Shown here one piece after another: positions 47,422-55,010 of a stretch of DNA of 64,000 bases. Source of the DNA: Cnuella takakiae (GTDB taxonomy: Bacteria; Bacteroidota; Bacteroidia; Chitinophagales; Chitinophagaceae); the NCBI RefSeq assembly GCF_001953305.1, contig NZ_MTFE01000010.1, forward strand, positions 3,156,800-3,220,799, read 5' to 3'. The first letter of the stretch is position 1, and each line of letters begins with the position of its first letter. The position numbers were made by a program, and so were the translations under genes. The notes beneath the pieces are model-generated. The model was given only the letters and a program-made list of their open reading frames with translations. It was not told where the DNA came from and made no database searches.

Positions 47422-48465
47422 ATGCAAGCTCCCGACCTGAAAGCTTTTGACCAGAAAGTATGGCGCACCATAGGAATGGTAGCCCTTACCCTAATACTTC
47501 TGTGGATCATCAAGGATACCATCCGCGTATTCCTGCTCATCATTACAGCTATCCTGGTGTCCATATTCTTCCTTCGGCTGGCTGGCATTATCAGGAGCAA
47601 AACTGGATGTAAGCAGGGCCTTAGCCTTGCGTTGGCCATCATCGCCAGCATTGCATCCCTTGTTCTGGTGTTCTGGTTCATAGGAGCAAGGGTGCAATTG
47701 CAGATTGCTGAACTAAGCGACACCCTGCCCGCATCAATTGAAAATGTAAGGCAGAAAATTGAGGCCAACCCACTTGGCAAAAGACTGCTAGGCGGTATGG
47801 GAAAAAGCGGCCAGTCGCTCCAGAAATACGCCCCTGCGGCACAGCGCTTTTTTACCGGGTCCTTTGGTGTGCTGGGCGACCTCTATGCCATCCTTTTCTT
47901 AGGTATCTTTTTTACCATCTCACCCAAGACCTATGTTGGTGGCCTGGTGCGGCTGGTACCTTTAAAAGGCAGGGATACCGCCCGCCATGTGCTCCATGAA
48001 ATGGACACAACCCTTGGCCACTGGCTTAAAGGCCAGCTGATTGCCATGCTGGTGGTGGCGGTTCTTACCTGGGTAGGCCTCGCCATCATTGGTGTGCCCA
48101 TGGCCATTGCACTGGCCATCATTGCCGGCTTGTTCAACTTCGTGCCCAACCTAGGGCCATTGGTGGCCATGATACCTGCCGTGCTGGTAGGTATGATGCA
48201 GGGAGGCAACACTGCACTGTATGTTGCAGGCCTTTACCTGCTGGTGCAGGCATTGGAAAGCAACCTGATCACACCCTATATCCAAAACAAGATGATCGAA
48301 ATACCTCCTGCCCTCATCCTGATGGGACAATTGCTGATGGGCACCCTCCTGGGTGTAATGGGTATCATTTTAGCTACGCCACTGGTAGCATTGATCATGG
48401 TGGCTGTACGCGAACTGTATGTGAAAAAGCAGGAAGCGGGCAGCCCGCAAAACACAGGGTTATGA
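47422..48465 (+). CDS. AI-2E family transporter
   Basis: 347-aa inner-membrane protein of the AI-2E transporter (formerly PerM/UPF0118) family. About seven membrane helices; the family core LGHWLKGQLIAMLVVAVLTW, the GLFNFVPNLGPLVAMIPA re-entrant motif and the C-terminal NKMIEIPPALILMGQLLMGT are clear. Members export quorum signals or act as Na+/H+ antiporters. Its last codons overlap the start of the erythromycin-esterase family gene as ATGA, so the two are translated together. Confidence 0.94.
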   Translation: MQAPDLKAFDQKVWRTIGMVALTLILLWIIKDTIRVFLLIITAILVSIFFLRLAGIIRSKTGCKQGLSLALAIIASIASLVLVFWFIGARVQLQIAELSDTLPASIENVRQKIEANPLGKRLLGGMGKSGQSLQKYAPAAQRFFTGSFGVLGDLYAILFLGIFFTISPKTYVGGLVRLVPLKGRDTARHVLHEMDTTLGHWLKGQLIAMLVVAVLTWVGLAIIGVPMAIALAIIAGLFNFVPNLGPLVAMIPAVLVGMMQGGNTALYVAGLYLLVQALESNLITPYIQNKMIEIPPALILMGQLLMGTLLGVMGIILATPLVALIMVAVRELYVKKQEAGSPQNTGL

Positions 48466-49781
48466 GCAAAGGATATTTCAGTGCAACGGAAAAGAAAATT
48501 CAACAGGTTATTAGCGAGAAAGGCAGGGTGCTGGATGGCTTTAAAAACCTGGATCCACTTTTTGATAAAATGAGCAGGGCGAGGGTGGTCATGCTGGGCG
48601 AGGCATCGCACGGTACGCATGAATATTATACCTGGCGCACTTATATCACCAAGAAGCTGATCACTGATTACGGCTTCAATTTTATAGGTGTCGAGGGCGA
48701 CTGGCCTGACTGTTATGCCGTCAACCGTTATATCAAACACAAGGAAGGCGCTGGGTCTTCGGCCGAAGCAGTACTTCGTGGCTACGACCGGTGGCCTACC
48801 TGGATGTGGGCCAACTGGGAAATCACGGGGCTTACGGAATGGTTGCACCAGTATAACAAAGGAAAGAGCTGGCCAAACCAGGCCGGGTTTTACGGCCTGG
48901 ATGTATATAGCCTTTGGGATTCGCTTACGGCGGTGCGCCAGTACCTGGCAGCCAATGACCCAGAGGCACTCCATCAGGCGGAAAAAGCATTCCGTTGTTT
49001 TGCGCCTTACAAAGATGATGAAACCTCTTATGCATACGCCGCACAGGTAGTGCCGCAGCGGTGCCAGCAGGAAGTGGTCCATTTACTACAGCAATTTCAG
49101 CGGGAAAAGGACGGCCGGGGGGACGATGCTGAAGAACGTTTTGCTGCTGAGCAAAATGCGCTGGTAACCGTTAATGCTGAAAAATATTACCGCACTATGA
49201 TTGGCGGTGGTGCAGCATCCTGGAATGTCCGCGACAGCCATATGGCCGAAACCCTGGAGCGGCTGATGCAATTGCATGGTCCCGATTCAAAGGCCATTGT
49301 ATGGGAGCACAATACCCATATCGGTGATGCCCGGGCCACCAGCATGAGCGATGAAGGGATGTACAATATCGGGGAACTGGCACGGAAGCAGTACGGCAAG
49401 GGGGATGTTTTTCTGCTGGGGTTCGGCAGTTATGCAGGCAGTGTGATGGCTGCCACCAGTTGGGGCGCCCCGCAACAGGTAATGGAAGTGCCGGAAGCGA
49501 GGGAAAACAGTTGGGAATACCATCTGCATGCAGCGGGTGGCAACCGGTTGCTTTTAAGTGACGACTTAAGGGAATCGGTCCTGGCAGAAAAAAGACTTGG
49601 CCACCGCGCCATCGGCGTGGTATACCGCCCGCAATACGAAAAGTTTGGCAACTACGTGGCTACCCTGGTACCCGAACGTTACGACGGGTTTATTTTCCTG
49701 GATCAAACCAAAGCGCTTCACCCGCTGCATGGTGAAGCACACAACCAAAAAATGCCGGAGACTTATCCTTTTGGGGTATAA
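48462..49781 (+). CDS. Erythromycin esterase family protein
   Basis: 439-aa protein of the erythromycin esterase (EreA/EreB) superfamily. The catalytic-type motifs are present: GEASHGTHEYYTWR at the N-terminus carries the Glu/His pair, VEGDWPDCYAV the second Glu, and VWEHNTHIGDA the second His region. There is no signal peptide, so it is cytoplasmic. The family contains true macrolide esterases and many uncharacterised hydrolases, including succinoglycan-biosynthesis homologues, so resistance must not be assumed. It overlaps the AI-2E transporter gene by 4 bases. Confidence 0.9.
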   Translation: MSKGYFSATEKKIQQVISEKGRVLDGFKNLDPLFDKMSRARVVMLGEASHGTHEYYTWRTYITKKLITDYGFNFIGVEGDWPDCYAVNRYIKHKEGAGSSAEAVLRGYDRWPTWMWANWEITGLTEWLHQYNKGKSWPNQAGFYGLDVYSLWDSLTAVRQYLAANDPEALHQAEKAFRCFAPYKDDETSYAYAAQVVPQRCQQEVVHLLQQFQREKDGRGDDAEERFAAEQNALVTVNAEKYYRTMIGGGAASWNVRDSHMAETLERLMQLHGPDSKAIVWEHNTHIGDARATSMSDEGMYNIGELARKQYGKGDVFLLGFGSYAGSVMAATSWGAPQQVMEVPEARENSWEYHLHAAGGNRLLLSDDLRESVLAEKRLGHRAIGVVYRPQYEKFGNYVATLVPERYDGFIFLDQTKALHPLHGEAHNQKMPETYPFGV

Positions 49782-49782
49782 A

Positions 49783-49844
49783 AAACTGGTGTTGGAAAAG
49801 TGAAAAGGCAGTATATCCTTTATCGCTGATACCAACACCAGTTT
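49783..49844. terminator. Long-loop hairpin between convergent genes
   Basis: Perfect 13-bp arms AAACTGGTGTTGG (49783-49795) and CCAACACCAGTTT (49832-49844) with an inner AAAGG/CCTTT pair in the 36-base loop. It starts directly after the esterase-family stop and ends 22 bases from the isoaspartyl peptidase stop. Confidence 0.6.
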
Positions 49845-49866: not shown

Positions 49867-50844
49867 TTATGGATAAATCCATGTGCCGGTATAGCCATCA
49901 TTGGTTTTTACACCCCGGTGCATCCTTTCTGAATTAAACGCCATTCCAAAATTCCCTTCCCGGTCTATAGAAATCATACCCATATCACCCTCCGTACCCT
50001 TATTGTCAATATGGATAAAACGATGTATCGCTTCTGGTACGCCTAAACCTGCATATCGAACCAGGGATGCAATTTCATGTCCCGCTACCCGCTTGATCAG
50101 GTATTCGCCGTCACCCGTTGTAGACACTGCACAGGTTTCGTTTTCGGCATAGGAGCCCACGCCAATCATGCTGCTGTCCCCAATACGGCCTTCTTTGGCA
50201 TACTCGGTACCTCCTGTTGATGTGGCAGCAGCTACATTGCCCTCTTTATCTACCGCCACTGCTCCTACCGTTCCATGCATGCGGGAGCCTATTTCTTCCA
50301 GTGCAGTGTCCTGTGTATTCCCATCCGCTTCCTTGCGGGCAGATTCATATGAATCGTACTGGTATTCGGTTACAAAATAAGCGTCCGGCTCCAGGCTGAT
50401 GCCGATGTTTTTGGCAAAATCAAGCGCCCCATAGCTACCCAGGTAAATGTGGTTGGTTTTTTCCATTACCGCACGGGCAAGGGTTACCGGGTTTTTGACA
50501 TTGCGTACAATGGCCACTGCTCCCGATTTGCCATTGCTGCCATCCATGATGGAGGCACACATTTCTACCTGTGCTTTTTGGTTGATGGCCGACCCGCGGC
50601 CTGCATTAAACAAGGGGTTATTTTCCAAAACATTTACGGCTGCTTCCACAGCATCTATAGCTGAGCCCCCTTCTTCCAATACCGAATAGCCGGCATCCAA
50701 TGCTGCCTGCAAGCCTTCATGATAGCCTTTTTCATTTTGATGTATATGCTCCGAATCGGGCCCTGCGCCCCCATGTACCACAATGCCAAAGTTTTGCATA
50801 CCTACAGTATTATTGTTATCCCTTTGTCTCCTGAAAGATTTCAT
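49867..50844 (-). CDS. iaaA: Isoaspartyl peptidase / L-asparaginase (Ntn hydrolase)
   Basis: 325-aa plant-type asparaginase/isoaspartyl peptidase, made as a precursor that cleaves itself before Thr192 (GSRMHGTVGAVAVD) to expose the nucleophile. The IVVHGGAGP start, NPLFNAGRGSAI and the STGGT region match the family. It hydrolyses beta-aspartyl dipeptides; beta-Asp-Arg is the product of cyanophycinase. The ATG at 50844 comes 1 base after the cyanophycin synthetase stop, so the genes are translationally linked; a second Met at residue 16 is possible. This context makes it the likely last step of cyanophycin breakdown. Confidence 0.93.
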   Translation of the reverse strand: MKSFRRQRDNNNTVGMQNFGIVVHGGAGPDSEHIHQNEKGYHEGLQAALDAGYSVLEEGGSAIDAVEAAVNVLENNPLFNAGRGSAINQKAQVEMCASIMDGSNGKSGAVAIVRNVKNPVTLARAVMEKTNHIYLGSYGALDFAKNIGISLEPDAYFVTEYQYDSYESARKEADGNTQDTALEEIGSRMHGTVGAVAVDKEGNVAAATSTGGTEYAKEGRIGDSSMIGVGSYAENETCAVSTTGDGEYLIKRVAGHEIASLVRYAGLGVPEAIHRFIHIDNKGTEGDMGMISIDREGNFGMAFNSERMHRGVKTNDGYTGTWIYP

Positions 50845-50845
50845 C

Positions 50846-53485
50846 CTAGACAGCAGCCCGCATTTGTGTTCTTGCTTCTTTATACTTGTTTAAATGTTCC
50901 TGCACCCGTTCGCAAACAGATTTTACATTGTCCACAAAAATCACGGTCAGCGAGCCGGGTGTGGCCGAGCTTACCGCATGGTCGATGGCCGAAGGTTCGT
51001 TGGAAAAATAATTGACCTTTTTATCCTGTGCCACCTTTTGAATACCGCTGCGCAAAAGCGAGGAGATTTCAAACTCTGTCCGGCCGCGCAGGTCTTCATC
51101 CTGGCGGATGATGATCTCGTCAAAGATCCTTGCAGACTCTGTTGCCAGGTTTACAATGTCTTCGCTTCTGCGGTCGCCAATACCTGCAATGACCCCAATA
51201 CGGCGGGTAGCAGGTAGGGCATGCACCAACTGTCCTACAGCTTTAAGTCCATGCACATTATGGGCATAATCTACCAGTACGGTAAAGTCGCCGAAGTTGA
51301 ACTCGTTCAACCTGCCGGGGGTATTTTGCACGCTGTTGCGGAAATTGCGGAGGGTAGCCCTGATGGCGGGCATGGTTACACCCGTGCAATAAGCCGCCAG
51401 TGCAGCACCCATAGCGTTGTAAATATTGAATTGGGCTTTTCCACCCATGGTCAGGGGAATGTTCTGTACTTCATCAATGGGCAATAACCTGTTGCCTTCC
51501 CTGATGATCAGGTATCCTTCATCCAGGATGGCAGCTCGTCCGCCAGCTTCGCAATGCTCCTGCACCCGTACGCTATCGGGGTAAATGGAAAACAAGGCCA
51601 CCTTACATTTTACCCGGTGCCGCATGGCATATACCAGGTCGTCATCGGCATTGAGCACCGCGTAGCCATCCGCCTTTACGGTTTCCGGCACCACCGATTT
51701 TACCTTTGCCAGTTGTTCAATGGTATTGATGCCTTCGATGCCCAGGTGGTCTTCTGCAACATTGGTTACCACGGCGCAATCGCACTGGTCATAACCCAAA
51801 CCAGACCTGAGAATGCCACCGCGGGCTGTTTCCAGAATGGCAAATTCAATGGAGGAATCTTTTAAAATAACCTGTGCTGATGCCGGGCCTGCACAATCGC
51901 CTTTATAAATTTGGCTGCCGTTGATATAAATACCATCGGTAGTGGTCAAACCAGTTTGGTAACCCGCTTGTCTTGCCATGCTGGCCAGCAGCCTTGAGGT
52001 GGTAGTCTTTCCGTTGGTACCCGTAACGGCAATGAGCGGAATACGGCCATTGCTGCCATTGGGAAACAGCATGTCTATTATAGGCTCGGCCACATTTCGG
52101 GGCCTACCGGATGTGGGTTCCAGGTGCATCCGCAAACCGGGGGCGGCATTTACTTCGATGACAGCACCACCGTTCTCAGCTATTGGGGAATGGAGTTCTG
52201 GCGCCATCACGTCGATGCCGCAAATGTCCAGCCCTATATTGCGGGCAATGCGTTCAAACAACAGTTTGTTGGCTGGATGTACCGAGTCGGTTATATCTGC
52301 TGCCGTGCCGCCGGTGCTGAGGTTGGCCGTTGTTTTTAGCCATAACTCTTTTCCTTCGGGCAGTACCGTGTCCAGGCTGAGCCCCTGCTTGGTTAAGATC
52401 TCTACTGTAGCAGCGTCGATCTCAATTTTAGATAACACTTTGCAGTGGCCATTTCCCCTGCGAGGATCGGCATTTACCAGGTCTATCAACTCCCGTATAC
52501 TATGGCTGCCATCGCCGGTAACCGCAGCAGGGGTGCGCTGCGCCACTGCCACCAACTGGTAATTGATCACCAGGGCCCGGAAATCGCATCCAGCAATAAA
52601 TTGCTCCACGATCACATCTTTGGAAATGGCCTGCGCCCTGATGAATGCATCCTGTGCACAGCCAATGCTGCGGATATTGGTGGTGGCACCTTTTCCCTGG
52701 TTTCCATCAAGGGGTTTTACCACCAGCGGGTAACCTACTTCTGCTATCGCCTGTTCCAGTTCTGCCTGGCTGGAAATAACCACCCCGCGTGGCACCGGCA
52801 CAAAGGCATCCTCCAGGATCTTTTTGGTGCGGTCCTTATTGCCTGCCATTTCAACGGCTATGATGCCTGTATCACCGGTAAGGGTGGCTTCAATCCGCTT
52901 CTTCTGGCTGCCATAACCCAATTGCACCAGGGCACCTTCATCCAGCCGCATCACCGGGATACCTCTTTTACGGGCTTCCGCCACTACACTCCAGGTGCTG
53001 GGACCCAGGCTGTATTGTTCGTGGTAATGCCGCAGTTGTTCCAGGTCACTTTCAAGGTCGTAGGCATTGCCTGCAATAAGGGCTTCTGCCAGGCGGACTG
53101 AAGCGGTGGCGGCATACAAGCCGGCCTGTTTTACCTGGTAGGCAAAAACAACATGGTATTGCCCTTCAACACCATTGCCACGGGTGCGGCCAAAGCCTAC
53201 ATCCATACCCGCAAGTGTTTGCATTTCCAAAGCGATGTGTTCAATAACATGCCCCATCCAGGTACCATCTTTTACCCTTAGGAAAAAGCCCCCGGGTACC
53301 CCTTCACTGCATTGGTGGCGGTACAGGCTGGGCATCAAGGCTTCCAGTCTTTCGCCAAAACCGGGAATCAAATTGGTGGGTTGGGTTTCCAGTTCTTCCA
53401 GGTCCAGCAGCATTTCCACCAGCTGTGTTTTTCGTATTGACCAAAAGTTTGGTCCATTCAATGTTTTCAGTTTCAGAACTTTCAT
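50846..53485 (-). CDS. cphA: Cyanophycin synthetase (CphA1)
   Basis: 879-aa enzyme that builds cyanophycin, a poly-Asp backbone with Arg on each side chain, using two ATP per unit. Residues 1-160 are the N-terminal domain (VGFGRTRGNGVEGQYHVVF). An ATP-grasp domain spans about 220-475 (YPLVVKPLDGNQGKGATTNI, EVNAAPGLRMHLEPT). The Mur-ligase-like domain has an intact P-loop VTGTNGKTTTSRLL at 487-500 and a C-terminal half with FTVLVDYAHN. An intact P-loop and full length indicate the two-site CphA1 class rather than CphA2. It is operonic with isoaspartyl peptidase and divergent from cyanophycinase. Confidence 0.96.
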   Translation of the reverse strand: MKVLKLKTLNGPNFWSIRKTQLVEMLLDLEELETQPTNLIPGFGERLEALMPSLYRHQCSEGVPGGFFLRVKDGTWMGHVIEHIALEMQTLAGMDVGFGRTRGNGVEGQYHVVFAYQVKQAGLYAATASVRLAEALIAGNAYDLESDLEQLRHYHEQYSLGPSTWSVVAEARKRGIPVMRLDEGALVQLGYGSQKKRIEATLTGDTGIIAVEMAGNKDRTKKILEDAFVPVPRGVVISSQAELEQAIAEVGYPLVVKPLDGNQGKGATTNIRSIGCAQDAFIRAQAISKDVIVEQFIAGCDFRALVINYQLVAVAQRTPAAVTGDGSHSIRELIDLVNADPRRGNGHCKVLSKIEIDAATVEILTKQGLSLDTVLPEGKELWLKTTANLSTGGTAADITDSVHPANKLLFERIARNIGLDICGIDVMAPELHSPIAENGGAVIEVNAAPGLRMHLEPTSGRPRNVAEPIIDMLFPNGSNGRIPLIAVTGTNGKTTTSRLLASMARQAGYQTGLTTTDGIYINGSQIYKGDCAGPASAQVILKDSSIEFAILETARGGILRSGLGYDQCDCAVVTNVAEDHLGIEGINTIEQLAKVKSVVPETVKADGYAVLNADDDLVYAMRHRVKCKVALFSIYPDSVRVQEHCEAGGRAAILDEGYLIIREGNRLLPIDEVQNIPLTMGGKAQFNIYNAMGAALAAYCTGVTMPAIRATLRNFRNSVQNTPGRLNEFNFGDFTVLVDYAHNVHGLKAVGQLVHALPATRRIGVIAGIGDRRSEDIVNLATESARIFDEIIIRQDEDLRGRTEFEISSLLRSGIQKVAQDKKVNYFSNEPSAIDHAVSSATPGSLTVIFVDNVKSVCERVQEHLNKYKEARTQMRAAV

Positions 53486-53590
53486 ACGGCTAGGTATATG
53501 TTCAAGTCTAGAGGAAATTCTGTGCCATATTCATTAACATACGTTGATACTCAGAAAGGTAAATGGCATAAGTTTTTTGCACGTATTTAC

Positions 53591-54460
53591 ATGAGTCTTC
53601 CAAAAGGTATTTTGATTGCTGTAGGTGGGGCTGAGGACAAGGGTATAGAAGCGGAAAGAGCTGATATTAACCGCCTTGATTTTTTTAAAGAAGGAATCCT
53701 GAATAGGATTGTAGAACTGGCGGGTAAAAAAGAAGAGCCGAGAATTGAAGTGGTCACCACTGCCAGCTCCATTCCTGAAGAGGTAGGAAGGATCTATAAG
53801 AAGGCTTTTAAAAAGCTGGGTTGCGCCTACGTGGGGCATTTAAAGATCGTGCAGCGCGAGGAAGCCGACCAGCCCAAAGTATTGGAAAGACTGGAGCAGG
53901 CTAACTGTATCCTGTTTTCAGGAGGCGACCAGTTGCGTTTATGTTCCATCCTGGGAGGTACCCAGTTTATTTCCCGTATGAAGGAGCGTTATTTCCAGGA
54001 ATATTTTATTGTTGCCGGCACCAGTGCAGGCGCAGCTGCCATGAGCCATACCATGATCAGTGGCGGACCCGATGATAAAGCTTACCTGAAAGGGGAAGTG
54101 CGTTTGAGCATCGGGTTCGGATTTATGCAAAATGTGATAATAGATACCCACTTCGATACCAGGGGGCGGTTCGGAAGGCTTGCACAGGCAATTACCAACC
54201 AGCCAAACGAGCTCGGCATTGGATTGGATGAAGATACGGGTGTGATTGTAGAAAAAGGATACCGCCTAAAAGCCATTGGCAGCAGCAGCGTAGTGCTGAT
54301 CGACGGCCGGGAAATCACCCATAGCAATGTAGCCAATATAAAGGGTGGAATGCCCATTTCTGTATCCAACCTGAAGGTGCACATCCTATCCCATTCTGAT
54401 GTTTATGATATTGATAAGCACCAGTTCATTAGCAAGTCGCTTGACTTTCACGTAAAATAA
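53591..54460 (+). CDS. cphB: Cyanophycinase
   Basis: 289-aa serine peptidase of family S51 that cuts cyanophycin into beta-Asp-Arg dipeptides. The nucleophile is Ser145 in AGTSAGAAA; the GGDQ loop (111-114), DTHFDTRGRFGRL and LGIGLDEDTG regions are all typical of CphB. There is no signal peptide, so it acts on cytoplasmic granules. The ATG at 53591 is used; the frame opens 31 codons earlier, in the divergent promoter region. It is 105 bases from the cphA start on the other strand and 11 bases before a 57-aa ORF. Confidence 0.96.
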   Translation: MSLPKGILIAVGGAEDKGIEAERADINRLDFFKEGILNRIVELAGKKEEPRIEVVTTASSIPEEVGRIYKKAFKKLGCAYVGHLKIVQREEADQPKVLERLEQANCILFSGGDQLRLCSILGGTQFISRMKERYFQEYFIVAGTSAGAAAMSHTMISGGPDDKAYLKGEVRLSIGFGFMQNVIIDTHFDTRGRFGRLAQAITNQPNELGIGLDEDTGVIVEKGYRLKAIGSSSVVLIDGREITHSNVANIKGGMPISVSNLKVHILSHSDVYDIDKHQFISKSLDFHVK

Positions 54461-54471
54461 AACCCACGTTT

Positions 54472-54645
54472 ATGAACCAGCAAGACAACAAAACAAACCT
54501 GCACCAGCCTGCGGATCAACCTGCAAGTGTAACCAAACAGGATCAGGATCCAAGGCAGGAGGCAATTGAAAAGGAAGAAGACACTGCGCGAATCCGCAGT
54601 GAAAAGCAAAGTGTTCAGGACGGTTCGCAACAGCAGGATCAATAA
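54472..54645 (+). CDS. Small Gln/Asp-rich hydrophilic protein
   Basis: 57-aa ORF, 11 bases after cphB and before a strong terminator, so almost certainly transcribed with it. It has 13 Gln, many Asp, Glu, Lys and Arg, no Cys or Trp and no hydrophobic stretch (for example TKQDQDPRQEAIEKEED), so it should be disordered and soluble. I recognise no family. Position suggests, but does not prove, a link to cyanophycin use. Confidence 0.55.
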   Translation: MNQQDNKTNLHQPADQPASVTKQDQDPRQEAIEKEEDTARIRSEKQSVQDGSQQQDQ

Positions 54646-54676
54646 AAAAAGGAACGGCACCAGCCGTTCCTTTTTT
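54644..54676. terminator. Bidirectional terminator after the cphB operon
   Basis: Perfect 8-bp stem GGAACGGC/GCCGTTCC (54651-54658 with 54663-54670) flanked by seven A and six T, between convergent transcripts. Confidence 0.9.
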
Positions 54677-54695: not shown

Positions 54696-55010
54696 TTATT
54701 GCCCTGTAGGTTTGTTGCCGACACCGGTTTGTGTTTCGGTACCAATGCCCCGCTTTGTATCGGGTGCACGTTCTGCGGCACTGGGGCGGGTGGTATCGGT
54801 GGAATCAACCGGCTGTACCGCACTTACATCCAAACCCGTAGTATCGCCACCAGAAGTCATCCCTGTAGTACCGGTTCCATCCCTACCCATATCATCGGCG
54901 CCTGAAGCTACCGAGCTGGTATCGCTGGCTTGCGAACCGGTATCATTACTTCCGTAGGTACAACTAAATACGCCTATTGCAAGGGCAGCACATACAAACA
55001 ATCGCAACAT
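54696..55010 (-). CDS. Small Ser/Thr/Asp-rich lipoprotein
   Basis: 104-aa protein with a lipoprotein signal (MLRLFVCAALAIGVFSC, modified Cys at residue 17). The mature part is Gly, Ser, Thr and Asp-rich and probably disordered (GADDMGRDGTGTTGMTSGGD). Such low-complexity lipoproteins are frequent in Chitinophagaceae; function unknown. Its 3' end faces the cphB transcript across a shared terminator. Confidence 0.7.
   Translation of the reverse strand: MLRLFVCAALAIGVFSCTYGSNDTGSQASDTSSVASGADDMGRDGTGTTGMTSGGDTTGLDVSAVQPVDSTDTTRPSAAERAPDTKRGIGTETQTGVGNKPTGQ

Follow-up and report, generated by a model that had tools for sequence, protein, structure and literature searches.

Cyanophycin loci are already on record for the phylum Bacteroidota. 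According to excerpts of PMC10206079, 86 complete Bacteroidota genomes contain the cyanophycin synthetase CphA1, and these carried a cyanophycinase in 100% and IadA and/or IaaA in 22.1% of the cases. Across all bacteria, the same excerpts give cphA1, cyanophycinase and iaaA as clustered in 49 of the 153 genomes having all three. An excerpt of PMC9723704 further describes cphA as co-expressed with metalloproteases in Flavobacterium psychrophilum. The locus analysed here lies in a 64,000-nucleotide stretch of the 5.70 Mb genome of Cnuella takakiae (C1:3156800–3220799, contig NZ_MTFE01000010.1), and this whole stretch is referred to as the window. It consists of a cphA gene, an iaaA-like gene downstream on the same strand and a cphB gene on the opposite strand, all within 5 kb as in the clusters mentioned above. 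Because of the 86 genomes counted and the F. psychrophilum report, such a locus is ordinary in Bacteroidota; the view of a preliminary description that a compact locus is noteworthy simply for occurring here was given up, and with it any claim of novelty in the phylum. The locus is thus mostly ordinary in kind, and its one oddity is a catalytic His-to-Gln change found in both synthetases of the genome.

In such a system, the G domain of CphA would add Asp to the C-terminus of the polymer and the M domain would add Arg to the Asp side chain, and the N domain may cut early product into primers. CphB would trim the polymer to beta-Asp-Arg, which IaaA would split into Asp and Arg. The genes and the key sites of CphA were located as follows.

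50846–53485, minus strand: cphA, cyanophycin synthetase family, 879 amino acids; 1209 bits with TIGR02068; residues 1–859 align with SuCphA1 (7lg5)
52697–52699, minus strand: codon CAG for Gln263, at the place of His267, the catalytic residue of the G-domain P-loop (from an alignment of 125 Bacteroidota CphA rows)
53237–53311, minus strand: N-domain motif C59, H79, E82, H83 (Cx19HxxEH, primer-making site), kept
52001–52021, minus strand: Mur-domain P-loop GTNGKTT, residues 489–495, intact
53591–54460, plus strand: cphB, cyanophycinase, 289 amino acids; 251 bits with TIGR02069; GTSAGA aligned with 7uqv and 3en0
49867–50844, minus strand: iaaA-like Asparaginase_2 gene, 325 amino acids from the first ATG; 330 bits with Pfam

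A glutamine in the G-domain P-loop of CphA

The window CphA scored 1209 bits against the TIGR02068 equivalog model, whose cut-off is 850, and carried PF18921 (N domain), RimK/ATP-grasp, Mur_ligase_M and Mur_ligase_C domains in one chain. A Mur-like ligase of another clade could be ruled out, as the best MurE-type model listed reached 136 bits. The domain order is that of the described CphA1 enzymes (SuCphA1, 7LG5; TeCphA1, 7WAC), and the N-domain motif, four M-domain residues (K493, T494, D579, H580) and 10 of the 11 mapped G-domain residues are likewise shared. The mapped Asp-binding residues R317, N388 and R452 are kept. The N-domain motif is not universal, being present in 83% of nr70 CphA1 according to an excerpt of PMC9262961. 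The window protein departs from SuCphA1 and TeCphA1 in that His267 is replaced by Gln and Trp672, at the tetramer interface, by Arg. The intact P-loop and ATP-grasp motifs of the preliminary description therefore hold for the Mur-domain P-loop and for most of the G domain, but not for the G-domain P-loop with its Gln263.

In TeCphA1, His267 lies on the G-domain P-loop and has been proposed as the stabiliser of the acylphosphate (excerpt of PMC9427784). His occupies this position in four distinct solved CphA1 structures (7lg5, 7wac, 7lgn and 7lgm; 7txv is a mutant of 7lg5) and in 123 of the 125 Bacteroidota CphA rows, 120 of which are different; both exceptions are the two copies of the present genome. 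Membership of the window CphA in the family model stands, and CphA1 activity is claimed with less confidence given the loss of this His. A three-sequence alignment revealed Gln at the same P-loop column in RimK, the ribosomal protein S6 glutamate ligase of Escherichia coli, so that Gln263 would take the place of the acylphosphate-stabilising His267 in the manner of the RimK Gln. Unlike the window CphA, RimK is a single-domain ATP-grasp enzyme and no cyanophycin enzyme. No report of a Gln variant was seen among the listed titles and abstract beginnings of open-licence literature on cyanophycin in Chitinophaga, Bacteroidetes (20 of 56 entries listed) or Bacteroidota, or on His267/H267, and a search of the same literature for cyanophycin with Flavisolibacter returned nothing.

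A second full-length cphA was found at C1:106928–109504 (1170 bits), approximately 3.1 Mb from the window set on the same contig, together with a second cyanophycinase gene at C1:103051–103839 (231 bits). Their products were 58.7% (CphA) and 54.0% (CphB) identical to those of the window, and the genome contained three Asparaginase_2 genes. Between the second cphB and the second cphA lies a 711-amino-acid open reading frame (ORF), a fusion of glycosyl hydrolase family 1 and RmlD (L009:5665–7800), with relatives of 58% identity near the Gln-type cphA of genome G227 and of 48% near the cphA of Fibrisoma limi. In a sample of 117 genomes of the family, 44 had CphA at E ≤1e-150, and two copies occurred in the genome of the window alone. 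In a first tree (FastTree), for which long branches were flagged, the window CphA and its paralog came out together. A fuller quick tree separates them, placing G375b and G329 beside the window CphA (support 94, not starred) and G227a (100), followed by G150b (99), beside the paralog; the two trees disagree on whether the two copies are sisters. Two cphA/cphB sets in one genome are also present, as two cph clusters, in Anabaena PCC 7120, a member of another phylum. To our knowledge, no Gln variant is known from the cph clusters of that strain.

The Gln variant was searched for within the class of the window. A DNA pattern of the Gln loop matched 8 of 394 genomes of the family, with all 10 matches inside a CphA, and 3 of 295 genomes of the class, where the matches likewise fell in CphA; besides the window genome, these were two from another family. 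Variant loops escape the pattern, and the Gln-type copies G375b and G329, of the window's genus, were found by the family search only. In these two copies (L201 and L202), none of the four N-domain primer-site residues is left either. Among 15 genomes examined, 10 carried a Gln-type CphA. In seven of these (G227, G150, G331, G230, G267, G300 and G375) it accompanies a His-type copy, the two-copy status being less sure for G331 and G230, which are fragmented and have an estimated contamination of 7% and 4%. Only Gln-type CphA was found in G352 (88% complete) and in the one-contig G329, where the CphA found stands beside a divergent cphB; in the window genome both copies are Gln-type.

The Chitinophagaceae in which Gln recurs are scattered. 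At least five Gln/His changes were counted on a 50-row quick tree, and a single Gln clade was rejected by the approximately unbiased test (p = 2.6e-9; 11 rows against 39), values to be read with the long branches in the tree and with the Gln group having been chosen after the rows were seen. One Gln-type pair gave nonsynonymous (dN) and synonymous (dS) substitution rates of 0.121 and 1.251, indicating purifying selection; for two His-type pairs, dN/dS values were 0.109/1.475 and 0.077/1.037. Divergence was too great for dS to be obtained for two other Gln pairs and for the window copy against G104.

The tetramer-interface residue Trp672 of SuCphA1 is replaced in both copies of the genome, by Arg666 in the window CphA. 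As the W672A mutation turns SuCphA1 dimeric (excerpt of PMC9262961), the window CphA may be a dimer. Trp was present at this position in 123 rows of the final 145-row CphA alignment, another residue in 21 and a gap in one; it is no defining feature of the family. The 12 Gln rows had lost it in nine cases, kept it in two (G331a and the G230 half) and showed a gap in one. The loss is not bound to Gln alone, because the remaining 12 non-Trp rows are of the His type, including His-type copies of the window's genus.

CphB, IaaA and the arrangement of the locus

The window CphB reached 251 bits against the TIGR02069 equivalog cut-off of 126.6. It has in common with described cyanophycinases (3EN0, 7UQV) this family score and the Ser nucleophile in GTSAGA, here Ser145 (codon 54023–54025), and differs from 7UQV by a longer N-terminal stretch at about residues 17–34. 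The ORF positions, the divergent cyanophycinase 105 bases from cphA and its Ser145 nucleophile were thus all as previously described. The IaaA-like protein scored 330 bits against a Pfam Asparaginase_2 cut-off of 27 and shares the fold family and the Thr nucleophile with E. coli IaaA (2ZAK). The nucleophile, Thr192 (codon 50269–50271), was Thr in all 37 rows of an alignment of sequences above 200 amino acids, from which shorter extracts such as L028, L030, L064 and L088 were dropped and L186 is also absent. From its first ATG the gene begins 1 base after the cphA stop, as the preliminary description had it. The closest IaaA relatives, in contrast, start at the residue equivalent to Met16 (50799), which makes Met16 the more likely start and 46 bases, rather than 1, the more likely gap.

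The gene order was compared with the best 80 of at least 587 relative loci and with 43 loci of the family (44 positive genomes minus that of the window). Flanking sequence of 1,500 bases or more was available upstream in 72/80 and 40/43 loci and downstream in 71/80 and 40/43, so the layout counts are lower bounds. A cphB divergent from cphA within 600 bases was found in at least 48 of the best 80 and at least 11 of the family loci, and a cphB anywhere in the fetched stretch in at least 58 and 25, respectively. Relatives of the window iaaA occurred in at least 27 of the best 80 and at least 5 of the 43. Directly 3' of cphA, on its strand and within 150 bases, as in the window, iaaA was seen in none of the best 80 and none of the 43. 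Among 20 further stretches, some of which repeat genomes of the first set and two of which are halves of one gene, the single match was G267a, with a gap of 122 bases. In L012 and G227b, iaaA instead lies behind cphB on the strand of cphB, and its products are 57% and 62% identical to the window IaaA.

The region between the divergent genes and the outer ends of the locus contained these further features.

53486–53590: divergent cphA/cphB intergenic region, 105 bases
53564–53569, plus strand: TGGCAT before cphB
53522–53527, minus strand: TGGCAC before cphA
54472–54645, plus strand: low-complexity ORF of 57 amino acids, 11 bases 3' of cphB, possibly no gene
54645–54676: terminator-like 14-nt perfect inverted repeat with a 4-nt loop, at the end of the 57-amino-acid ORF
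49783–49844: perfect inverted repeat of 13 nt, with its arms 36 nt apart, located between iaaA and the erythromycin-esterase-family gene, which converge

TGGCAT was present within 80 bases before cphB in all 8 loci of the window's genus (at -27 in six, at -28 and -45 in two) and in 1 of the 85 cphB loci outside the genus, where 1.0 was expected. Before cphA, TGG[CT]A[CT] occurred in 6 of the 8 genus loci, with TGGCCC in the other two, and in 13 of the 134 remaining cphA loci, where 5.3 were expected. The contrast overstates the evidence, since the motif was picked after viewing the alignment of the same 8 related loci. The motif was absent within 80 bases of either gene of the second locus. 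No sigma-54 promoter is claimed for the TGGCAC motif, as by eye the -12 GC part was not kept in the compared sequences. The preliminary description had taken the divergent layout to let synthesis and breakdown be switched oppositely. That proposal, resting on layout alone, was dropped: iaaA, a gene of breakdown, lies downstream of cphA in the same orientation, and a single motif stands ahead of each of the two divergent genes, which argues against simple opposite switching and is no proof of joint control.

The small ORF noted behind cphB is present at its described place; it had no Pfam match, the loci searched yielded no relative of it (best non-self E-value 2.7), and it may be no gene. A terminator scan gave 9 sites against 5.6 expected, which tells little, and its list lacks the 14-nt repeat; equally little can be drawn from the 8 sigma-70-type promoter sites against 6.3 expected. 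A plasmid search with the locus region gave no match. The erythromycin-esterase-family protein (48462–49781) scored 390 bits with Pfam and far below the NCBI cut-offs for named Ere resistance enzymes. At 54696–55010 lies a Ser/Thr/Asp-rich ORF of 104 amino acids whose start, judged by eye, resembles that of a lipoprotein; it had no Pfam match.

Interpretation of the locus

The locus is probably one of cyanophycin synthesis and breakdown with a variant synthetase, a reading to which we give a probability of roughly 0.75. It is favoured by the scores of CphA and CphB over curated cut-offs and of IaaA over the Pfam cut-off, by the end-to-end CphA1 match, by the retained G-, M- and N-domain residues, and by the common occurrence of cphB beside cphA in relatives; the recurrence of Gln, the purifying selection in one Gln pair and the RimK Gln point the same way. 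The complete storage cycle of the preliminary description is accordingly kept as the best reading of gene content, family scores and residues, with product and activity as predictions. Several observations weigh against it. Exchange of His267 for Ala lowers the activity of TeCphA1 and SuCphA1 (excerpt of PMC9427784) and has served to inactivate the G domain of SuCphA1 (excerpt of PMC9262961). In the 145-row alignment, in which two Gln rows are halves of one split gene and 7 rows duplicate others, His was found in 133 rows and Gln in 12. The window copy has no close relative, its best match being 59% identical. The IaaA-like protein, far under the cut-off of the E. coli-type beta-aspartyl-peptidase equivalog (NCBIfam PRK10226; 227 against 567 bits), belongs to the same superfamily and not to that equivalog, which makes beta-Asp-Arg a putative substrate.

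A Gln-type CphA with an altered substrate or product (another backbone or side chain), or one of slow or short-chain synthesis, acting alongside canonical CphA1 or instead of it, would agree with the recurrent Gln in the Asp-adding site, with the seven of ten Gln genomes in which the Gln copy is second to a His-type copy, and with the long branch of the window copy. We regard it as unlikely, because the Asp-binding R317, N388 and R452 are kept and a canonical-type cyanophycinase adjoins, and the second copies are less sure in two of the seven genomes (G331 and G230). The long branch and the replaced His267 could also mark a decaying, inactive copy, and the related Gln-type G375b and G329 are also without the N-domain motif. 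This is highly improbable in view of the open frame of 879 codons, the other mapped catalytic residues retained, the purifying selection in another Gln-type pair, and the one-contig G329, in which the only CphA found is Gln-type with a divergent cphB.

A further alternative concerns the iaaA-like gene, which might encode a general isoaspartyl peptidase/asparaginase for damaged proteins that stands behind cphA by chance; it is compatible with cyanophycin turnover at the locus. One IaaA and one IadA from cyanophycin clusters showed no preference for beta-Asp-Arg in excerpts of PMC10206079, and the position directly behind cphA is unmatched in the best 80 and the 43 family loci. Against this, the closest relatives found (56–62% identical) are all in cphA loci of other genomes, though only cphA loci were sampled, and the gene lies on the cphA strand, no more than 46 bases away from cphA. 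A chance neighbour of this kind therefore appears improbable.

For the Chitinophagaceae, it is conceivable, if rather doubtful, that a second type of synthetase has evolved recurrently, with a RimK-like Gln loop and a usually lost interface Trp; it would differ in its chemistry, in chain length or in what it makes, and would have fully replaced the His type in the present genome. With a synthesis and breakdown locus as preferred here, the organism would be one more heterotroph among the known carriers of cyanophycin genes. The Gln variant represents a natural experiment on the need for His267 in Asp addition and on the role of a RimK-like loop in a polymerase, and Gln-type CphA, if active, would supply new synthetases for biopolymer production.

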